Made by a program: the position numbers and the translations under genes. Below, piece after piece: positions 53,248 to 62,398 of a DNA stretch of 64,000 bases; position 1 is the stretch's first letter, and every line of letters begins with the position of its first letter. Origin of the DNA: Streptomyces sp. Mut1. Its GTDB lineage: Bacteria; Actinomycetota; Actinomycetes; Streptomycetales; Streptomycetaceae. Below the pieces are notes generated by a model. It was not told where the DNA came from. It searched no databases and saw only the letters and a program-made list of their open reading frames with translations. The stretch is taken from positions 5,219,501 to 5,283,500 of the forward strand of contig NZ_CP120997.1 in the NCBI RefSeq assembly GCF_030719295.1. The letters run 5' to 3'.

Positions 53248-54213
53248 ATGTCTTCGACCGAGCTGCCGGGAGTCCGCGCCGCCGCCGCAGCGGTGGCCCC
53301 CACGGTGAGCGCCGTCAGGGTCGCCGAGGGGGAGCGGCTGCGCTCCGTCGAGCTGCCCGGACTGACGCTCACCCTCCGTTCGCGGCCCTCCCGGCGGCCC
53401 GGACTGCCGCCCGCCCTCTTCGTGCACGGCCTCGGCGGCTCCTCGCAGAACTGGACGGCGCTGATGCCGCTCCTGGAGGACGTGGTGGACTGCGAGGCGG
53501 TCGACCTGCCCGGATTCGGCGACTCCCCGCCGCCCGACGACGGCAACTACTCGGTCACCGGTCACGCCCGCGCGGTGATTCGTCTCCTGGACGCCCAGGA
53601 GCACGGCCCCGTCCATCTGTTCGGCAACTCGCTGGGCGGCGCGGTGGCCACCCGGGTCGCCGCCGTCCGCCCCGACCTGGTGCGCACCCTCACCCTGGTC
53701 TCGCCCGCGCTCCCCGAGATCCGGGTCCAGCGCACGGCCGCCCCGACCGCGCTGCTCGCACTCCCGGGCGTCGCCTCCCTGTTCTCCCGGCTGACCCGGG
53801 ACTGGAGCGCGGAAGAGCGCACCCGCGGAGTCATGGCACTCTGTTACGGCGATCCGGCACGGGTCTCCGAGACGGGCTTCCGCGACGCGGTGGCCGAAAT
53901 GGAGCGCCGACTGGAACTGCCGTACTTCTGGGACGCCATGGCGCGTACCGCCCGTGGCATCGTCGACGCGTACACCCTGGGCGGACAGCACGGGCTGTGG
54001 CGCCAGGCCGAGCGGGTGCTCGCGCCGACCCAGCTGGTGTACGGCGGACGGGACCAGCTCGTCTCGTTCCGGATGGCCCGCAGGGCGTCCGCGGCCTTCC
54101 GCGACGCGCGCCTGCTGACACTGCCCGACGCCGGGCACGTGGCGATGATGGAGTACCCGGAGGCGGTCGCCCAGGCGTTCCGGGAATTGCTCGACGAATG
54201 CGGCGGGAGCTGA
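53248..54213 (+). CDS. Alpha/beta hydrolase
   Basis: 321 residues. FVHGLGGSSQNW oxyanion region, nucleophile elbow GNSLGG, Asp in YGGRDQLV and His in DAGHVAMME make a complete triad. The substrate is unknown. TAACAT (53235-53240) lies seven bases before the ATG, suggesting a leaderless mRNA. Its 3' end abuts the DUF3152 gene, and the two are probably co-transcribed. Confidence 0.92.
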   Translation: MSSTELPGVRAAAAAVAPTVSAVRVAEGERLRSVELPGLTLTLRSRPSRRPGLPPALFVHGLGGSSQNWTALMPLLEDVVDCEAVDLPGFGDSPPPDDGNYSVTGHARAVIRLLDAQEHGPVHLFGNSLGGAVATRVAAVRPDLVRTLTLVSPALPEIRVQRTAAPTALLALPGVASLFSRLTRDWSAEERTRGVMALCYGDPARVSETGFRDAVAEMERRLELPYFWDAMARTARGIVDAYTLGGQHGLWRQAERVLAPTQLVYGGRDQLVSFRMARRASAAFRDARLLTLPDAGHVAMMEYPEAVAQAFRELLDECGGS

Positions 54214-54221
54214 TCCGGGGC

Positions 54222-55577
54222 GTGGGACGACACAGCCGTAAGGGCCCTGCGCCCAGGGTGCCCGAGACCGGGCAGGCGGAGGCGAACGAGGCGGGGCGCG
54301 AGGCCGCCCGGCCGGTCGCCGGCAGCGGGCGGCGCAGACGGCAGGCCGAGCAGGCCGGCCCGGGGCCGTTCCCGGGCGCGCCCGAGGTACGTGGCGGTCA
54401 CCCCGAACAGCGTGAACCCGGCGGCGGCTGGGGCGCGGGCCCCATGGGCCGAGGCACCGAGGGCAGGGGCCAGGGGCGGCCCGGTCTCCAGGCGCCCGCC
54501 CCCGGCGGCAGGCCGGGCGGCCCGCGTCCCGCGCACCACCCGCAGGGCCCCACGCACCATCAGCAGGCGACCTCCACCCGGCCGCTGATACCGGGTCCGC
54601 GGCGCGAGTTCGTCGAGGCCTTCGACAATCCGCCCGCACCGCCCGCGCCGCGTCGGCAGGCGGCGGCGCCCGCCGACCCGTTCGCCTCCGTCACCGAGTG
54701 GGACGAGCGCCCGCCGGAGCGCGGGCGCGACGAGGCGGCCGGGACCAGGGACGCGAAGGACGCCAAGGGCGGCAAGGGCCGTACGTTCACCGGCATCGCC
54801 GCCGCCGCGGTCACCACCGTGCTCGCGGTCGTCGTGGCCGGCCAGGTCGCCCACGACGGCACCGGCGGCAACGGAGCGGCGCGGGCCGCGGGCGTGGACC
54901 GGGGCGAGAGCGACGACGCCTCCCGGTCGGACAGCCGGAACACCCCGTCCCCCGGAACGGCGGCGGTCAAGCCCCTTTCGTATGAGCAGAAAATGGCCAA
55001 GCCTTATCCGCTGGCTCCGGCGCTCGTGGGACCGGGGGACTTCGAGACGGTCCCCGGCTCGGCCAAGGCGCCGGGCAAGGGCACGAAGCACCGCTACCGC
55101 ATCGATGTCGAGAAGGGGCTCGGGCTCGACGCCGAACTGTTCGCGCAGGCCGTGCAGAAGACGCTCAACGACGACCGGAGCTGGGCGCACGACGGCGATA
55201 TGACCTTCGAACGGATCTCCAAGGGCGATCCGGATTTCGTCATCACGCTGGCAAGTCCCGGCACCACCGCCACGTGGTGCCGGAAGTCGGGCCTGGACAC
55301 CACCGAGGACAACGTCTCCTGCGACTCGGCCGCCACCGAGCGCGTGATGATCAACGCCTACCGCTGGGCGCAGGGTTCGGCCACCTTCGGGCCGGACAAG
55401 CTGTTCTCCTACCGGCAGATGCTGATCAACCACGAGGTCGGCCACCGGCTCGGCCACAACCATGTGAGCTGCCGTACGGAGGGCGCCCTCGCGCCCGTCA
55501 TGCAGCAGCAGACCAAGACGCTGAACCTCGACGGCATCAAGTGCCGGGCCAACCCCTGGGTGTATCCCGAGGACTGA
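54222..55577 (+). CDS. DUF3152 membrane-anchored metalloprotease-like protein (Rv3207c-like)
   Basis: 451 residues from the GTG at 54222 (VGRHSRKGPAP, a common streptomycete N-terminus); an ATG at 54198 overlapping the hydrolase gene is the alternative. A Gly/Pro-rich cytoplasmic region of about 190 residues, one membrane helix (FTGIAAAAVTTVLAVVVAG) and an extracytoplasmic domain with a zincin motif NHEVGHRLGHNH (H404, E405, H408 and a third His), with paired Cys. It is probably a zinc peptidase or a relative; substrate unknown. Confidence 0.88.
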   Translation: MGRHSRKGPAPRVPETGQAEANEAGREAARPVAGSGRRRRQAEQAGPGPFPGAPEVRGGHPEQREPGGGWGAGPMGRGTEGRGQGRPGLQAPAPGGRPGGPRPAHHPQGPTHHQQATSTRPLIPGPRREFVEAFDNPPAPPAPRRQAAAPADPFASVTEWDERPPERGRDEAAGTRDAKDAKGGKGRTFTGIAAAAVTTVLAVVVAGQVAHDGTGGNGAARAAGVDRGESDDASRSDSRNTPSPGTAAVKPLSYEQKMAKPYPLAPALVGPGDFETVPGSAKAPGKGTKHRYRIDVEKGLGLDAELFAQAVQKTLNDDRSWAHDGDMTFERISKGDPDFVITLASPGTTATWCRKSGLDTTEDNVSCDSAATERVMINAYRWAQGSATFGPDKLFSYRQMLINHEVGHRLGHNHVSCRTEGALAPVMQQQTKTLNLDGIKCRANPWVYPED

Positions 55578-55706
55578 ATGGGTGTCAGGAGGCCGGTGCG
55601 CGGGTAGCGCCCGCGGTGCCATGAGCCTGACCGCGAGTGACCTTTCGCCTCCATAGCGCGACTAAACGTTATTCGCGCGGGAAAGTTACGACGGTTCACC
55701 CCTTTC

Positions 55707-55740
55707 GGTGGTGCGACGGACAACCGTCCGTCGCACCACC
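55707..55740. terminator. Perfect hairpin upstream of the glycosyltransferase gene
   Basis: 15-bp perfect inverted repeat (55707-55721 with 55726-55740) and AACC loop, 130 bp after the DUF3152 stop and 80 bp before the glycosyltransferase start. It may end the DUF3152 transcript or be an operator/leader hairpin of the following cluster; the AT-richer block at 55655-55690 just before it could hold a promoter. Confidence 0.5.
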
Positions 55741-55820
55741 GGCGTATCCGCTTACGGTCGTCCCGCCGCGAGTCGCCGATCCAACGGCGGCCGCACACAA
55801 GGGAGATCGGGGGTGCACTC

Positions 55821-57608
55821 GTGCGGATCGGACTGCTCACCGACGGTGGTTATCCGTACGCGACCGGTGAGTCCAGGCTCTGGTGCGACCGCCTGGTACG
55901 CGGGCTCGCCCAGCACGAGTTCGACCTCTTCGCGCTCAGCCGTACCGCCGAACAGGAGGCGCGGGGCTGGGTCAGGCTCCCCGCCCAGGTCGGCCAGGTG
56001 CGTACCGCCCCCCTGTGGACCGCCGACGAGGAATCCCTCGGACTGCACGCACCCAGGGGACCGTTCTCGCGCCTGCTGACCGGAGGGGGCGCGCGGACCT
56101 ACGCGCGGCGCGAACGGCGGCGCTTCGCCACCCACCTCACCTCCCTCGCGGCCTCGGTCTGCACGGCGGGCGGCGAGCCCGGCGGGGCGGACACGGCCCG
56201 GCCCGCCGGTACGGGTGACGGAGCCGGCCCCCGGGCCGCCGACGAGCAGTTCACCCAGGGCCTCTACGGGCTCGCCGAACTGGCCTGGGAGCACGGCGGA
56301 CTGCCCGCCGCGCTCCGCTCCGAGACCGCCGTGCGCATCCTGGAGGCCGCCTGCCGCGCCCCCGGCACCGGGCGCACCGTGCAGACCGCCACCGTCGCCG
56401 ACCTCCTCGCCTTCACCGCTGAACTGGACCGGGTGCTGCGCCCGCTCTCCCTGGACTGGTACGAGGAGGACGGCCTCGCAGCCGTCGACCTCTGCCATGC
56501 CGCGTCCGGTGGTGCGGCCGCTCTGCCGGGTCTGCTGGCCAAACGCTTCTTCGGCGTCCCCCTGCTGGTCACCGAGTACTCGGTGCGGGTGCGGGCGCAC
56601 TACCTCTCGTCGGGGGGCGCGCCCGTGAGCGCGCCGGTGCGCGCCCTCCTGGCGAACTTCCACGGGCGGCTCGCCACCGAGGTGTACCGGCAGGCCGCGC
56701 TCATCACCCCCGGCAACACCCACGCCCGCCGCTGGCAGGAGCGCTGCGGCGCCGACCCCGCCAAGGTGCGGACGGTGTACCCCGGCATGGAGTCCGCCCG
56801 GTTCGCGGCACTCGGTGAGCGTGAGGACGACGGCGGCCCCGACACGCTCGTCTGGGTCGGCCGGATCGAGCCCGCCAAGGACCTGATCGCCCTCCTGCAT
56901 GCCTTCGCCGAGGTGCGCCGGGCCGAGCCGGACGCCCGGCTGCGGATCATCGGGGCGCCGGCCCCGGGCCCGGCGGGCGCCACCTATCTCGCGCACTGCC
57001 GGGCGGTGGCCGCCGAGCTGTTCCCCGACGAGGCGGCCGGTACGCACGCCGGGGGCGAGAATCCGGTCTCCTTCGAGGACATCGGGGACGACGGCGTACC
57101 CGGCCTCGCCCAGGCGTATGCGGCGGGCGGCGTCGTGGTGCTGTCCAGCGTGGTCGAGGGCTTTCCGATCAGCCTGGTCGAGGCGATGTTCTGCGGCCGG
57201 GCCACCGTGTCGACGGACGTCGGCGCGGTCGTCGAGGTCATCGGCGGCACCGGGCTCGTGGTCCCGCCGCGCAACCCCCGGGCGCTCGCGGACGCCTGCC
57301 TGGCGCTGCTGCGCGACCCGGAGCGCCGTGCGCGCCTGGGTGCGGCGGCTCGCGCCCGAGCCCTGGAACTCTTCACCGTCGAACAGAATCTCGCGGCATT
57401 CCGCGGCATCTACCTGGAGCTGATCGCGCAGGCGCCGGTACGCAGCGCGCCGCGCCCGGAGCCCGGTGAGGGGCCGCGCCCCTTCGCCACCCCGCCGGAG
57501 GCCCACGTCCTGGGCCTCCGACCGGAACCGGAACCGGAGCCGCACCCCGGCGATCGCACCCCCAGCTGGGCGGGCGCGGCGCCGGGGCCGGGGGCGAGCG
57601 ATGCGTGA
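55821..57608 (+). CDS. PelF-like glycosyltransferase (DUF3492 plus GT4)
   Basis: 595 residues from the GTG at 55821. The N-terminal DUF3492-type domain (IGLLTDGGYPYATGESRLWC, LLVTEYSVRVRAHYL) is that of PelF, the cytosolic polymerising transferase of Pel exopolysaccharide. The C-terminal GT4 domain has DTLVWVGRIEPAKDLIALL, LRIIGAPAPG and the nucleotide-sugar Glu in SSVVEGFPISLVEAMFCG. A 60-residue Pro-rich tail follows. It probably transfers GalNAc/GlcNAc-type sugars. The next gene starts inside its 3' end or just beyond it, and an epimerase and a spherulin-4 hydrolase follow. Confidence 0.87.
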   Translation: MRIGLLTDGGYPYATGESRLWCDRLVRGLAQHEFDLFALSRTAEQEARGWVRLPAQVGQVRTAPLWTADEESLGLHAPRGPFSRLLTGGGARTYARRERRRFATHLTSLAASVCTAGGEPGGADTARPAGTGDGAGPRAADEQFTQGLYGLAELAWEHGGLPAALRSETAVRILEAACRAPGTGRTVQTATVADLLAFTAELDRVLRPLSLDWYEEDGLAAVDLCHAASGGAAALPGLLAKRFFGVPLLVTEYSVRVRAHYLSSGGAPVSAPVRALLANFHGRLATEVYRQAALITPGNTHARRWQERCGADPAKVRTVYPGMESARFAALGEREDDGGPDTLVWVGRIEPAKDLIALLHAFAEVRRAEPDARLRIIGAPAPGPAGATYLAHCRAVAAELFPDEAAGTHAGGENPVSFEDIGDDGVPGLAQAYAAGGVVVLSSVVEGFPISLVEAMFCGRATVSTDVGAVVEVIGGTGLVVPPRNPRALADACLALLRDPERRARLGAAARARALELFTVEQNLAAFRGIYLELIAQAPVRSAPRPEPGEGPRPFATPPEAHVLGLRPEPEPEPHPGDRTPSWAGAAPGPGASDA

Positions 57609-57678
57609 CCAGGAGACGGCCGGCCCGCCCCGCCCCAGCCGGCCGGGACCGGACGAACAGCAGCACGGAGGAACGACG

Positions 57679-59166
57679 ATGGGCCCCCAGACGGACGCCC
57701 GCACGGAAGCCCTGGAAGACCTCGCCCCCACGCCGGCGGGCGAAACGGCCGGGCCCGAGCTGATCGGATCCGGGCCCGCCGCCCCCGGGCCCGCCGGCCT
57801 CGCGCCGGCCGCCCCCGCGCCGTCCGGCCTCGCGCCGGCCGCCCCCGCGCCGTCCGGCCTCGCGCCGGCCGACCTCGCGCCTGTCGACCCCGGGCCCGCC
57901 GCCCCCGCCCCAGCCGACCTCGTGCCCCCCGACCCCGCGCACGCCCCCGCCCGGACGGCCGCCGATGCGCCGGAGCGCAACCCGGAGCACACCCCGGCGC
58001 GTAATCCCGCGCGCGCCCCCGAGGTGGCCCGCGTCCACCCGCGCACCGCCCACCCCGCCCGCGACACCGCGACCGCCGCGCGCCAGGCGGCCGGTGGGGC
58101 GCACGGGACCGCCGACCCCGTGAAGGCCCTCATGCACCGGCACCGTGAGCTGTGCGAGCGGGCCGTCGACCCGCTGGAGATCGCCGCCGGGCTCGAAGCC
58201 CACGGCGTCACCGACCGCACCGCCGCCCGCTACCGGCACCGCGACGTGTTCTCGCTCGCCGAGGAACTCTTCGCCCGGGTCCCGGCCGTCGCGGGGGAGT
58301 CCGCCGCCGCCGGCCCCGCTCCGGCGCGCGACATCGAGACGCGCGCCGCCTGGTCGCTGCGCGCCCTGCTGCCGGGCGCCGCCTGCCTGGCCACCTTCGT
58401 CGCGCTTCGCCTCACCGACGGGGTGCTCGGCGGCGACGCCCGGCTCGCCATCGGCGCCGGCGGCACGCTGCTCGCGCTCATCGGCCTGGCCCTCGCCCTG
58501 CGCACCGGCCCCCTCAGCGCCCGCACCGGCTCATCGGGCACCGCAGCCCTCTGCGCCTGCTGGCTCCTCGGCTACGTCCTGTACGGCGACGACCTGCTCC
58601 ACCAGGTCCTCAGCGGCGGCCCCGAAGGCCCCTGGACGCTCACCCCGGCGCCCCTGCTCGGGCTCGCCCTCGCGGTGGCCCCCGCCGCCTGGTGCGCCCA
58701 CCTCTTCTCCCTGTACGCCCACCGCAGACTCCACGGCAGCCACGCGCTGGAGGAGTTCGCCGCCGGCGTGCGCCCCCTGCTCTTCGGCGCCGTCGCGCTC
58801 TTCGCCTGCGTCCTGGCCGCGCTGCTGTACCTGGCCCGGCTCGGGCTCGGCACCGGCGGCTCCCCGGCCGCTGCCGCCGCCCTCGGGGTGCTGCTCCTGC
58901 TGGCCCGCCTGCTCACCGTCCACGGCTTCCCGGAAGCGGCCGCCACCGGCCTCGCCGCCGCCTGCGCCGTCGAGGCCGCCGCCCCCGCCCTGATCCTGGC
59001 CGGACGGCTGCCCGGACTCGACCCGCTCGCCCGCCCGGTCGATGCCCTGATCGAGGCGGCGGGCACCGGGGCCGTGCCCGCGCTCGCCTGCGGCGCGGCC
59101 GCCCTCGGCCTGCTGACCACCGCCACCCTCGCCCTCTCCAGGGCATCCGCCCACACCGCCGCCTGA
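57679..59166 (+). CDS. Polytopic membrane protein of the Pel-like cluster
   Basis: 495 residues from ATG 57679 (GGAGG seven bases upstream); an ATG at 57601 overlapping the glycosyltransferase stop would add 26. A disordered Ala/Pro region of 140 residues includes PSGLAPAAPA repeats. A conserved-looking helical segment follows (MHRHRELCERAVDPLEIAAG, YRHRDVFSLAEELFARVP). The C-terminal 300 residues have about eight membrane helices. It is not an obvious PelG or PelE by eye; by position it is the export or assembly component of the cluster. Confidence 0.8.
   Translation: MGPQTDARTEALEDLAPTPAGETAGPELIGSGPAAPGPAGLAPAAPAPSGLAPAAPAPSGLAPADLAPVDPGPAAPAPADLVPPDPAHAPARTAADAPERNPEHTPARNPARAPEVARVHPRTAHPARDTATAARQAAGGAHGTADPVKALMHRHRELCERAVDPLEIAAGLEAHGVTDRTAARYRHRDVFSLAEELFARVPAVAGESAAAGPAPARDIETRAAWSLRALLPGAACLATFVALRLTDGVLGGDARLAIGAGGTLLALIGLALALRTGPLSARTGSSGTAALCACWLLGYVLYGDDLLHQVLSGGPEGPWTLTPAPLLGLALAVAPAAWCAHLFSLYAHRRLHGSHALEEFAAGVRPLLFGAVALFACVLAALLYLARLGLGTGGSPAAAAALGVLLLLARLLTVHGFPEAAATGLAAACAVEAAAPALILAGRLPGLDPLARPVDALIEAAGTGAVPALACGAAALGLLTTATLALSRASAHTAA
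57796..57880 (+). repeat. 30-bp tandem repeat within the membrane-protein gene
   Basis: Two exact copies of a 30-bp unit (57796-57825, 57826-57855) and a partial third encode GLAPAAPAPS repeats in the disordered N-terminus. Confidence 0.85.
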
Positions 59167-59249
59167 GGCGCCCCAGAACCCCCGCGGAGCCGACGCCGCG
59201 GGTCGTCATCACCCGTTCCACCCGTAACTGCCCCAAGGAGACACCGGAC

Positions 59250-59363
59250 ATGACCCCCCAATCCCCCGCACCGGCAGCCCGCCGTCGGCCCCCAGGCCGG
59301 GTCCGCCCATTCGCGCCCGGTTCGCGACGCCCGGGTGGACCGGGCCTGGGCGGTGCGCGATGA
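59250..59363 (+). CDS. Very small Pro/Arg-rich ORF coupled to the epimerase gene
   Basis: 37 codons (MTPQSPAPAARRRPPGRVRP onward), with AAGGAG (59235-59240) nine bases before the ATG, the best ribosome site in this 190-bp gap. Its TGA overlaps the epimerase ATG as ATGA. It may encode a small protein or simply deliver ribosomes to the epimerase, which has no good site of its own. Confidence 0.45.
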   Translation: MTPQSPAPAARRRPPGRVRPFAPGSRRPGGPGLGGAR

Positions 59364-60325
59364 GGGTGCTGCTGCTCGGAGCCAACGGATTCATCGGCCG
59401 GTTCGTGGCCGACCGGCTGCTCGCCGACCCCGCCGTCCACCTCACCGCCCTCGGGCGCGGCGACGACGCCGACGTACGGTTCGACCTCGCCGGCGGCAGT
59501 CCCGGAGCGCTCACCCGCTTCCTGGACGCCGTCCACCCCGGAGTCGTCGTCAACTGCGCGGGCGCCACCCGGGGCGGCGCCCGCGACCTCACCCGGCACA
59601 ACACCGTCGCCGTCGCCACCGTCTGCGAGGCGATGCGGCGCAGCGGCTGCTCGGCCCGCCTCGTCCAGGTCGGCTGCGCCTCCGAGTACGGTCCCTCGCA
59701 GCCAGGATCCTCCACCGCCGAGGACGCGATCCCGCGCCCCGGCGGCCCGTACGGCGTCAGCAAGCTCGCCGCCACCGAGCTCGTCCTCGGCTCCGGCCTC
59801 GACGCGGTCGTGCTGCGGGTCTTCTCACCGGTCGGCCCCGGCACCCCCGCGGGCTCCCCGCTGGGCCGGCTCGCCGAGGCCATGCGGCGCACCATGCAGT
59901 CCGGCGACGGCGAGCTGAAGCTCAGCGGCCTCGGCGTGCAGCGCGACTTCGTGGACGTACGCGATGTGGCGCGCGCCGTGCACGCCGCCTCGCTCTCCGC
60001 CGCGCAGGGCGTCGTCAACATCGGCACCGGCCGGGCCGTCCGGCTCCGCGACGCGGCGGCCGTCCTCGCCAAGGTCGCCGGATACGCCGGCGCGCTCCAC
60101 GAGCTGGACACGCCCCCCGCGCGCCTGCCCATCGGCGCCCCCCGCACCTCCACCGAATCGGTCATCGAGCACCTCTCGGCCACGCCGTCCCCGTACCCGG
60201 ACGGTTGCGGGGCCTGGCAGCAGGCGGACGTACGCACCGCCCGCGACCGGCTCGGCTGGCGCCCCCGGATCAACCTGGAGGAGTCACTCGCCGACATCTG
60301 GATGGAGGCGGCGTGCCGTATCTGA
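59360..60325 (+). CDS. NAD-dependent sugar-nucleotide epimerase/dehydratase
   Basis: 321 residues, extended SDR. GANGFIG binds NAD; the catalytic pair is in GGPYGVSKLAATE (YxxxK) with Ser in GCASEYGPS; GLGVQRDFVDVRDVARAV and VNIGTGRAV are typical of GalE/RmlD-like enzymes. In context it may make UDP-GalNAc or UDP-GalNAc-like precursors, as PelX/Uge3 epimerases do for Pel and galactosaminogalactan. It overlaps the small ORF upstream and the spherulin-4 gene downstream (GTG 60313). Confidence 0.9.
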   Translation: MRVLLLGANGFIGRFVADRLLADPAVHLTALGRGDDADVRFDLAGGSPGALTRFLDAVHPGVVVNCAGATRGGARDLTRHNTVAVATVCEAMRRSGCSARLVQVGCASEYGPSQPGSSTAEDAIPRPGGPYGVSKLAATELVLGSGLDAVVLRVFSPVGPGTPAGSPLGRLAEAMRRTMQSGDGELKLSGLGVQRDFVDVRDVARAVHAASLSAAQGVVNIGTGRAVRLRDAAAVLAKVAGYAGALHELDTPPARLPIGAPRTSTESVIEHLSATPSPYPDGCGAWQQADVRTARDRLGWRPRINLEESLADIWMEAACRI

Positions 60326-61134
60326 CCAGCACCGGCACGGCCCGGCGGAGCAGCGGCGCCGAACAGCTCGGCTTCGGCGTCCCCGGCTACGCGCACCCGC
60401 TGCTCGCGACGGCCGAGTGGGCCGAGCTCACGCGCCCCGGAACGCCGCTGCACTGGGCTGTCCTCAACGTCGACAACGGCCCCGGCAGCCGGCCCGACCC
60501 GCACTGCCTGGAGGCGGCGGGCCGGTTCCGCAACGCCCGCGCGCCGCGCGGCGGTGAGCCGCCCGACACCGTGCGGGCGGCGGGCGGGCGGCTGCTCGGG
60601 CGGCTCGACCTCGCGCACGGCCGGCGGCCCTTCACGGAACTGCTCGCGGACGCCCGGTCGTTCCTGGAGTGGTACCGCGTGGACGGCTTCTACCTCGACC
60701 GCTGTCCGGTCGACCGCGCCGATCTGCCGGCCGTCCGCCGCCTCGCCGGGACCCTCAGGGCCTTCCTCACGGACGCGGACGGCCCCCTCGTGCTCGGACA
60801 CGACACCCACCCGTACCCCGGCTACGCGGAGGCCGCCGACCAGCTCGTCACCTTCCGCGGCGCGTGGAGCGACTACCGCTGGTCGCAGGTGGCGGAGTGG
60901 ACCGCCGCTTATCCGCCCGGCCGGTTCGCCCACTTCGTCCACGGCGTCCCGCGCACCCACCTGGAGGAGGCCATGCGCATCGCCCGCTGGCAGGGAGCCG
61001 GGACGATCTTCTTCACCGACCGCGGCGGGCAGTCGGAATCCGGACGCGGGCGCGGACAAAGCGACCCATTCGCGGCACTGCCCAGTTACTGGGACGAAAT
61101 TGTCTCGCGGATCGGACTCGGTATCTCGGAATGA
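60313..61134 (+). CDS. Spherulin-4-like (GH135-type) glycoside hydrolase
   Basis: 273 residues from GTG 60313 (GGAGG close upstream), overlapping the epimerase gene by 13 nt. Spherulation-specific family 4 features: FGVPGYAHPLLATAEW, WAVLNVDNGPGS, FLEWYRVDGFYLDRCP, LVLGHDTHPYPGY and a C-terminal WQGAGTIFFTDRG. In the fungal member Sph3 this fold cleaves galactosaminogalactan. The segment usually ending in FFDE reads FYLDR here, keeping the Asp but not the next Glu. No signal peptide is visible, so it may act inside the cell or leave by another route. Confidence 0.85.
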   Translation: MPYLTSTGTARRSSGAEQLGFGVPGYAHPLLATAEWAELTRPGTPLHWAVLNVDNGPGSRPDPHCLEAAGRFRNARAPRGGEPPDTVRAAGGRLLGRLDLAHGRRPFTELLADARSFLEWYRVDGFYLDRCPVDRADLPAVRRLAGTLRAFLTDADGPLVLGHDTHPYPGYAEAADQLVTFRGAWSDYRWSQVAEWTAAYPPGRFAHFVHGVPRTHLEEAMRIARWQGAGTIFFTDRGGQSESGRGRGQSDPFAALPSYWDEIVSRIGLGISE

Positions 61135-61219: not shown

Positions 61220-62398
61220 GTGTCGCTGCCACCCCTGGTCGAGCCAGCTGCTGAGCTCACCGTCGACGAGGTCCGCAGGTACTCCCGCCACCTGATCATC
61301 CCGGATGTCGGGATGGACGGGCAGAAGCGGCTGAAGAACGCGAAGGTGCTCTGTGTCGGCGCCGGGGGCCTCGGCTCGCCGGCCCTGATGTACATGGCCG
61401 CCGCCGGTGTCGGCACGCTCGGCATCGTGGAGTTCGACGAGGTCGACGAGTCGAACCTGCAGCGCCAGGTCATCCACAGCCAGGGTGACATCGGCAAGTC
61501 CAAGGCGCTGTCGGCCAAGGAGACCGTGCAGGGAATCAACCCCCTGGTCAACGTGGTCCTTCACGAGGAGCGGCTCGAAGCCGACAACGTGATGGACATC
61601 TTCTCCCAGTACGACCTGATCGTGGACGGCACGGACAACTTCGCCACCCGCTATCTCGTCAACGACGCCGCGGTCCTGCTGAACAAGCCCTACATCTGGG
61701 GTTCGATCTACCGCTTCGACGGCCAGGCGTCCGTGTTCTGGTCCGAGCACGGACCCTGCTACCGCTGCCTGTACCCGGAGCCGCCCCCGCCGGGCATGGT
61801 TCCGTCCTGCGCCGAGGGCGGCGTCCTCGGCGTGCTCTGCGCCTCCATCGGCTCCATCCAGGTCAACGAGGCCATCAAGCTGCTCGCCGGCATCGGCGAC
61901 CCGCTGGTCGGCCGGCTGATGATCTACGACGCCCTGGAGATGCAGTACCGCCAGGTCAAGGTCCGCAAGGACCCCGACTGCGCGGTCTGCGGCGAGAACC
62001 CCACCGTCACCGAGCTCATCGACTACGAGGCCTTCTGCGGCGTCGTGTCCGAGGAGGCCCAGGAGGCGGCTGCCGGTTCCACGATCACTCCGAAGCAGCT
62101 CAAGGAGTGGATCGACGCCGACGAGAAGATCGAGATCATCGACGTCCGAGAGCCGAACGAGTACGAGATCGTCGCGATCCCGGGCTCCCGGCTGGTCCCG
62201 AAGAACGAGTTCCTGATGGGCAACGCCCTCCAGGACCTCCCGCAGGACCGGCGCATCGTCCTGAACTGCAAGACGGGTGTCCGCAGTGCGGAGGTCCTCG
62301 CGGTCCTCAAGTCGGCGGGCTTCGCCGACGCGGTCCACGTGGGCGGCGGCGTGATCGGCTGGGTCAACCAGATCGAGCCCGAGAAGCCGGTCTACTAG
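61220..62398 (+). CDS. moeZ: MoeZ adenylyltransferase/sulfurtransferase
   Basis: 392 residues from the GTG at 61220. The N-terminal E1-like domain has VGAGGLGSPALMYMAAAGVG, the adenylation R/D residues (NLQRQ, DGTDNF) and zinc Cys pairs (CYRC, CAVC). A C-terminal rhodanese domain has the active Cys in NCKTGVRS. It adenylates and thiolates small ThiS/MoaD-like sulfur carriers for molybdopterin, thiamine and secondary-metabolite thio-groups. It belongs to the conserved Rv3206c-like position. Confidence 0.95.
   Translation: MSLPPLVEPAAELTVDEVRRYSRHLIIPDVGMDGQKRLKNAKVLCVGAGGLGSPALMYMAAAGVGTLGIVEFDEVDESNLQRQVIHSQGDIGKSKALSAKETVQGINPLVNVVLHEERLEADNVMDIFSQYDLIVDGTDNFATRYLVNDAAVLLNKPYIWGSIYRFDGQASVFWSEHGPCYRCLYPEPPPPGMVPSCAEGGVLGVLCASIGSIQVNEAIKLLAGIGDPLVGRLMIYDALEMQYRQVKVRKDPDCAVCGENPTVTELIDYEAFCGVVSEEAQEAAAGSTITPKQLKEWIDADEKIEIIDVREPNEYEIVAIPGSRLVPKNEFLMGNALQDLPQDRRIVLNCKTGVRSAEVLAVLKSAGFADAVHVGGGVIGWVNQIEPEKPVY

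Follow-up and report, generated by a model that had tools for sequence, protein, structure and literature searches.

Does the row of four genes upstream of moeZ in Streptomyces sp. Mut1 encode a small, working exopolysaccharide system? The genes lie at positions 55821..61134 of a 64,000-nucleotide stretch of contig NZ_CP120997.1 (the window), and a preliminary description had proposed that they form a minimal Pel- or galactosaminogalactan (GAG)-like system for an aminosugar polymer. We compared gene content, residue changes, trees, substitution rates and gene retention by computation in the window and its relatives. Our best explanation, to which we give a probability a little above one half (about 0.55), is that these genes are what remains, at its original site, of a complete Agd3/Pel-type (GAG-like) operon, likely still making a residual N-acetylhexosamine (HexNAc) glycan, in which an extended short-chain dehydrogenase/reductase (SDR) has become newly important.

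A Complete Operon Beside moeZ

The complete set, as found in relatives, consists of eight genes, which encode an Agd3-like deacetylase, a glycosyltransferase (GT), an orphan membrane protein (MEM), a LegB-like dehydratase, a nucleotidyltransferase, the SDR, a spherulin-4 protein (SPH) and a GH114 protein. All eight were found in loci L086, L119, L120, L121 and L122, and L108 (genome G359) has them beside moeZ. Other loci carry fewer of the eight, some being cut by the fetched stretch; the short forms L093, L096 and L101 have the Agd3-like, GT, MEM and SPH genes, with GH114 called in L101. In the window, no Agd3-like deacetylase or GH114 gene is present between the gene for a DUF3152 protein, directly upstream of the block, and moeZ.

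The order of the genes in L108 is Agd3-like, GT, MEM, LegB-like, nucleotidyltransferase, SDR, SPH, GH114, an opposite-strand open reading frame (ORF) and moeZ. Its SPH has an intact catalytic Asp and Glu, and its SDR has Ser at the catalytic position. In the GT tree the moeZ-linked rows fall on one side of a branch (support 97), with L108 as sister to the other 28 of them (99 in the SH-like approximate likelihood ratio test). Similarly, the moeZ-linked rows fall on one side in the SPH tree (91) and in the SDR tree (100), and L108 is outermost in both. All three trees are quick searches with flagged long branches (L085 and L098 for SPH; L091, L119, L149, L108 and others for the SDR), and those for SPH and the SDR leave out L112, L109 and L103, which were judged to come from the same genomes as L127, L149 and L145, as well as the short L084, L099 and L100. 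The full gene set beside moeZ, the intact residues and the outermost GT of L108 together point to erosion in place.

The assignment of the first gene of the complete clusters deserves comment. Searched singly, the Agd3-like gene matched nothing in Pfam, NCBIfam or the PDB, and a profile built on it likewise had no PDB match, which speaks against the Agd3 label. Kinship to Agd3 is suggested by two relatives that are 64-65% identical to the L086 gene and scored 27.1 and 29.9 bits against the Agd3_CE cut-off of 27.6, and by the precomputed Agd3_CE domain in 12 of 120 listed homologues; the partial piece in L108 scored 12.2 bits. For L086, the LegB-like protein scored 458.9 bits (cut-off 475) and the GH114 protein 286.4 bits. 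A search of the genome of Streptomyces sp. Mut1 with the Agd3-like profile was empty, although it had no positive control. This genome has one GH114 gene elsewhere, so the strain does not lack GH114 activity, and its nearest relatives of the LegB-like gene are 33% identical.

Several moeZ-linked loci represent intermediate or later stages. Wenjunlia tyrosinilytica (L127) has only the GT, MEM, SDR and SPH genes before moeZ, yet has both the SPH Asp and Glu and the SDR Ser, which suggests that gene loss came before loss of the active sites. In L188 the SPH gene is a relic of 33 residues, in L148 and L153 it is gone from between the SDR gene and moeZ, and in L151 (W. vitaminophila; same genome as L194) and L189 the SDR gene and moeZ stand alone. 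Two further arrangements were seen: L137 has SDR-SPH-moeZ, with no GT or MEM gene found in the 10 kb upstream, and L190 has MEM-SDR-moeZ and no GT gene.

The Spherulin-4 Protein

The SPH gene (60313..61134, forward strand) begins at a GTG at 60313 rather than at 59335. The product scored 58.8 bits against PF12138 (Spherulin4; cut-off 30.2), and a profile of 14 copies matched Sph3 of Aspergillus clavatus (PDB 5c5g) with an E value of 6.3e-10. The same structure was the best Foldseek match to the SPH model (E 2.9e-11, template modelling scores 0.63/0.68, model mean pLDDT 64.6). Thus, by family profile and fold, SPH belongs with the GH135 (Sph3) proteins, but it has only one of the two catalytic residues of that family: the Asp is kept as D129, while the place of the Glu is taken by R182. 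In the alignment, chain position 116 of Sph3 (FFDE) pairs with D129 and position 172 (VVFE) with R182. An offset of 50 makes position 172 Glu222 and, hence, the Asp residue 166, so that D129, R130 and R182 stand at the places of Sph3 D166, E167 and E222, in a numbering of D166 and E167 that we take to be the correct one. The catalytic pair is printed as Asp196/Glu222 in the accessible sections of PMC12054363; we regard 196 as a slip for 166 because the residue spacing in the other enzymes shown there fits 166.

The substitution is general in the nearest homologues. Among the best 120 of 1227 homologues, the Glu place was readable in 118 and held Glu in none of them, with Arg, Gln, Ser or Cys instead, and the catalytic Asp was retained in 56 of the 118. 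In contrast, for loci with no moeZ on the fetched piece, each of the 23 copies that could be read has both residues (L083, L084 and L099 are short contigs, for which this means only that no moeZ lies on the piece). Among the moeZ-linked loci that were read, L108 and L112 (= L127) are the only ones with both, and L109 (= L149) carries Asp where the Glu would be. We therefore predict, from these residues, that SPH of the window and its nearest homologues is a pseudo-glycosidase.

No signal-like stretch was evident at the N-termini of 21 SPH copies when their sequences were read. A simple hydropathy scan also detected no SPH signal, although the same scan missed the signal-like N-terminus of a second, weak spherulin-4 copy in L082 (6704-7510; ~32 bits to the block profile). 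The intact SPH copies also mostly begin directly at the barrel, and a cytosolic site is therefore likely for both the intact and the Glu-less kinds. As a predicted inactive protein that shows no secretion signal, SPH should not trim exported polymer in the way that Sph3 and PelA do. One SPH-type match was found in the Mut1 genome; a PF12138 family search of that genome was empty despite the member in the window and, being insensitive, was not used as evidence of absence.

The SPH start overlaps the SDR gene by 13 nt, and an in-frame ATG or GTG is present 13 nt inside the SDR gene in 21 of 21 regions (the window included; some have further upstream starts). The two genes may, therefore, be translationally coupled.

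The Glycosyltransferase and the Membrane Protein

GT (55821..57608, forward strand) has a DUF3492 domain (82.7 bits, cut-off 23.3) together with a GT4 domain, and scored 98.9 bits against the NCBIfam PelF profile (NF038011), just under the cut-off of 100. Scores of relatives against this profile were 164.1 (L086), 161.0 (L108) and 119.9 bits (L127), and 67.2 bits for L197, whose coordinates may be partial. The Mut1 genome has one DUF3492 match. The window GT has R348, K353 and the E446-x7-E454 pair, which we presume to be the catalytic positions from what is generally known of GT4 and PelF enzymes. All four are complete in 44 of 53 moeZ-linked loci and in 18 of 18 other loci, in a count that leaves out L184-L203. 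The altered cases, in which E446 is Asp or Ala or K353 is changed or missing, include L049, L050, L051, L148, L150 and L152.

MEM (57601..59166, forward strand) has a variable Pro/Ala-rich N-terminus, a conserved stretch of ~50 residues (LCERAVDPLEIAAGLEAHG...RHRDVFSLAEELFARV) and then a multi-helix membrane part. The conserved stretch also occurs in clusters away from moeZ. At 57760-57900 the window MEM opens with an imperfect Pro/Ala repeat (LAPAAPAPSG-like), and the length of the N-terminus varies widely among relatives. No Pfam or NCBIfam family was found for MEM and, from a low-confidence model (mean pLDDT 63), no fold match, which speaks neither for nor against kinship to PelE or PelG. 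Based on the GT residues and on the selection described below, it is likely that GT and MEM still make a glycan in this strain.

The first ATG of MEM overlaps the GT stop by 8 nt, and the gap between MEM and the SDR gene is 193 bp. Not all of the four genes therefore overlap. In other respects the structural claims of the preliminary description were borne out: all four ORFs are present and conserved in a row upstream of moeZ, the first product has DUF3492/PelF kinship, the last is kin to PF12138, and the genes co-occur across the genus. Of 61 genomes, Mut1 included, 36 gave a MEM match (35 of 37 in the genus, plus G057 outside it). Each of the 20 same-genus regions that were chosen for such a match has the genes in the order GT-MEM-SDR-SPH-moeZ. 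A class-wide sample of 296 genomes yielded SPH-type matches in 32, of which 26 belong to the genus.

The SDR Is the Most Conserved Gene

The SDR (59360..60325, forward strand) scored 127.9 bits against the Pfam Epimerase profile. No NCBIfam equivalog exceeded its cut-off, the best weak match being GalE (37.6 of 262.3 bits), and the nearest PDB relatives are the GDP-6-deoxy-4-hexulose reductases 2pk3 (E 2.4e-20) and 6x3b (E 1.3e-16). L108 and 14 loci without moeZ contain the SDR, LegB-like and nucleotidyltransferase genes as a trio, whereas L082, L093, L096 and L101 have none of the three; in L085, which is outside the SDR count, the latter two genes were found. As the SDR travels with this pair and has such PDB kin, it is more likely to be of the 4-keto-sugar reductase type than a UDP-GlcNAc 4-epimerase of the PelX/Uge3 kind, and the ancestral SDR may have catalyzed the 4-keto-reductase step after the LegB-like dehydratase.

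The Gly motif and Y131/K135 are present in the window SDR, with Cys106 at what we take, from general knowledge of SDR motifs and from the Ser of relatives, to be the catalytic Ser/Thr place. For loci without moeZ, every one of the 13 copies read has Ser at this place. Among moeZ-linked loci Ser is found in L108, L109/L149, L112/L127, L151 and L170-L183 (L170 being from the same genome as L151), and the remaining readable copies have Cys. The L149 SDR has, in addition, Phe at the catalytic Tyr.

The ratio of nonsynonymous to synonymous substitution rates (dN/dS) was estimated by the NG86 method for 11 moeZ-linked pairs, some of which share a member and so are not independent. The values were 0.03-0.09 for the SDR, 0.16-0.40 for SPH and 0.03-0.18 for moeZ and, in usable pairs, 0.20-0.49 for GT and 0.24-0.49 for MEM. 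Estimates from fewer than 60 codons were not used (GT of L107/L113 and L104/L145; MEM of L131/L143), and those for L050/L051 are partial (356 codons for GT, 86 for MEM) and within the ranges given. The SDR is, therefore, the most conserved of the four genes. The order of constraint is reversed in the two pairs without moeZ that were compared, with 0.29-0.31 for the SDR and 0.11-0.21 for SPH.

Retention differs in a similar way. The SDR type is present in 237 of 249 family genomes (single-protein query, E <= 1e-90), whereas the moeZ-type SPH is present in 132 of the same genomes (profile, E <= 1e-80); these cut-offs differ, and split SPH matches such as that in G534 do not reach theirs. A further 36 genomes were selected because they gave no moeZ-type SPH match. 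Some SDR match at E <= 1e-30 is present in 31 of them and the SDR type in 30, in every case upstream of moeZ and on its strand. In two of these 30 loci, L164 and L165, SPH is nevertheless present there. A gene kept almost unchanged in this way probably does something that matters to the cell.

Origin of the Block and Alternative Explanations

We propose the following course for the erosion. The ancestor of the family would have had a complete exopolysaccharide operon beside moeZ, from which the Agd3-like deacetylase, GH114 galactosaminidase, LegB-like 4,6-dehydratase and nucleotidyltransferase genes were lost. Later steps would have been the loss of the catalytic Glu, which left SPH as a pseudo-glycosidase, and a change from Ser to Cys in the SDR of one large clade. 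The PelF-like GT and MEM would, most likely, still make and move a neutral (not deacetylated) HexNAc-type glycan whose chain SPH may bind or chaperone rather than cut, and the SDR would have acquired a function on which selection acts far more strongly than it does on GT, MEM and SPH.

A number of observations weigh against this proposal. The fetched stretch begins within the L108 deacetylase gene, which is thus incomplete, and the opposite-strand ORF intervenes between its GH114 gene and moeZ. When further genera are added to the SDR tree, L108, Mangrovactinospora (L149), a clade of the genera g120/g121/g128/g131 and all remaining rows meet at its base in an unresolved fork, and L108 is a flagged long branch in both SDR trees. 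The "full" rows do not fall on one side of this wider tree because one of them, full_L094, is a fragment in the wrong frame (17% filled). The Ser-to-Cys change and the SPH Glu loss may each be a single event, in which case their association weighs little. At least one of the four GT positions is altered in 9 of 53 moeZ-linked loci, GT and/or MEM is absent from L137, L149, L151, L189 and L190, and it is the position of MEM in the block that would suggest its export role.

The GT changes and missing GT or MEM genes favor a different explanation, in which only the SDR function, a housekeeping sugar-nucleotide or other NAD(P) reaction, is selected and GT, MEM and SPH are slowly decaying passengers. 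The wider retention of the SDR type than of the moeZ-type SPH, its persistence upstream of moeZ in SPH-less genomes and the loci with the SDR gene and moeZ alone fit this explanation, which we nevertheless consider less likely, given that dN/dS for GT, MEM and SPH is still well under 1, the four GT positions are complete in most moeZ-linked loci and the gene order is kept in all 20 MEM-selected regions. Equally tentative is the idea that an SDR from the time of exopolysaccharide synthesis was taken over for a near-essential family function and fixed beside moeZ, its active-site Ser turning to Cys in one large clade, with the operon decaying around it; among the decaying parts would be a conserved pseudo-glycosidase, probably located in the cytosol, the gene for which begins a fixed 13 nt inside the SDR gene.

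The system originally proposed, with a 4-epimerase, PelF polymerase, export protein and working spherulin-4 hydrolase all active, agrees with the family matches and gene co-occurrence, and descent from a Pel/GAG-like aminosugar system is retained in our own explanation. However, it is improbable that it describes the present block, because SPH lacks the catalytic Glu and shows no signal-like N-terminus, no deacetylase gene is in the block or was found by the profile search of the genome noted above, and the SDR is akin to 4-keto reductases and co-occurs with LegB-like and nucleotidyltransferase genes. With a complete set beside moeZ in L108, "reduced" describes the block better than "minimal". 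Slightly less probable still is that the reduced block is ancestral and that genes added afterwards gave rise to the complete clusters, that of L108 among them. The short forms without the SDR, LegB-like and nucleotidyltransferase genes (L082, L093, L096, L101) indicate that content is labile, and the fork at the base of the SDR tree is compatible with addition, but the GT, SDR and SPH of L108 are on the moeZ-linked side with its GT outermost, the outgroups include complete clusters, and intact catalytic residues are the likelier older state. Erosion of a complete operon in place is the explanation we prefer.

Neighboring Genes and Composition

The constant downstream neighbor, moeZ (61220..62398, forward strand), encodes an adenylyltransferase/sulfurtransferase (NF005902, 744.2 bits, cut-off 647). 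In S. coelicolor, moeB carries the gene number SCO5178 (PMC4340878). The DUF3152 protein directly upstream of the block (53997-55577; 205 bits) also has sub-threshold metallopeptidase matches. Several relatives have ~5-6 kb between the DUF3152 gene and GT (4604-10069 in L032), which on inspection of the sequence resembles an oligopeptide-type ATP-binding cassette transporter; the window has no such insert at the corresponding place (55577-55821). The G+C content of the window is 70-78% over 4-kb steps, with 77.9% at 56001-60000 and 70-74% in the remaining steps. This is Streptomyces-type DNA, and most of the nearest homologues bear Streptomyces names.

Relation to Known Systems

The complete cluster is of a kind known in print. 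According to the available parts of Bamford et al. (2020; PMC7229062), bacterial agd3 operons comprise agd3, a cytoplasmic GT, a multi-spanning membrane protein and GH114, and some in actinobacteria also include a spherulin-4 gene; the moeZ-linked remnant is not mentioned in those parts. The block shares the GT, membrane protein and spherulin-4 genes with these operons, and the clusters away from moeZ and L108 also have the Agd3-like and GH114 genes, whereas the moeZ-linked block has neither a deacetylase nor GH114 and its SPH is without the catalytic Glu. With the Gram-positive pelDEADAFG operon, as presented in the accessible portion of Whitfield et al. (2020; PMC7112168), the PelF-like GT is in common, while no pelD, pelE, pelADA or pelG family was found among the block proteins, to which this search was confined. 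Of the fungal GAG cluster (Sph3 of GH135, Ega3 of GH114, and Agd3), SPH is kin to Sph3 in fold and sequence. In the sections available of PMC12054363 and PMC7229062, Sph3 is membrane-bound and acts on exported polymer; SPH, by comparison, shows no signal-like N-terminus and lacks the acid/base residue. The SDR differs from the GDP-6-deoxy-4-hexulose reductases 2pk3 and 6x3b in its Cys at the catalytic Ser/Thr place, and the block has no 4,6-dehydratase gene. Among the matches listed in open-licence literature, there was no study of the moeZ-linked block.

What could be read as a minimal biofilm operon would thus be an operon whose erosion can be followed in living relatives through complete, intermediate and relic stages. 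In Streptomyces, a protein labelled PF12138 is not necessarily an active hydrolase, and the complete clusters are where a Streptomyces GAG/Pel-like polymer should be sought. The comparison also draws attention to an uncharacterized SDR under strong constraint, which is found in 237 of the 249 sampled family genomes, lies beside moeZ wherever its place was examined and probably now has a role that matters to the cell.

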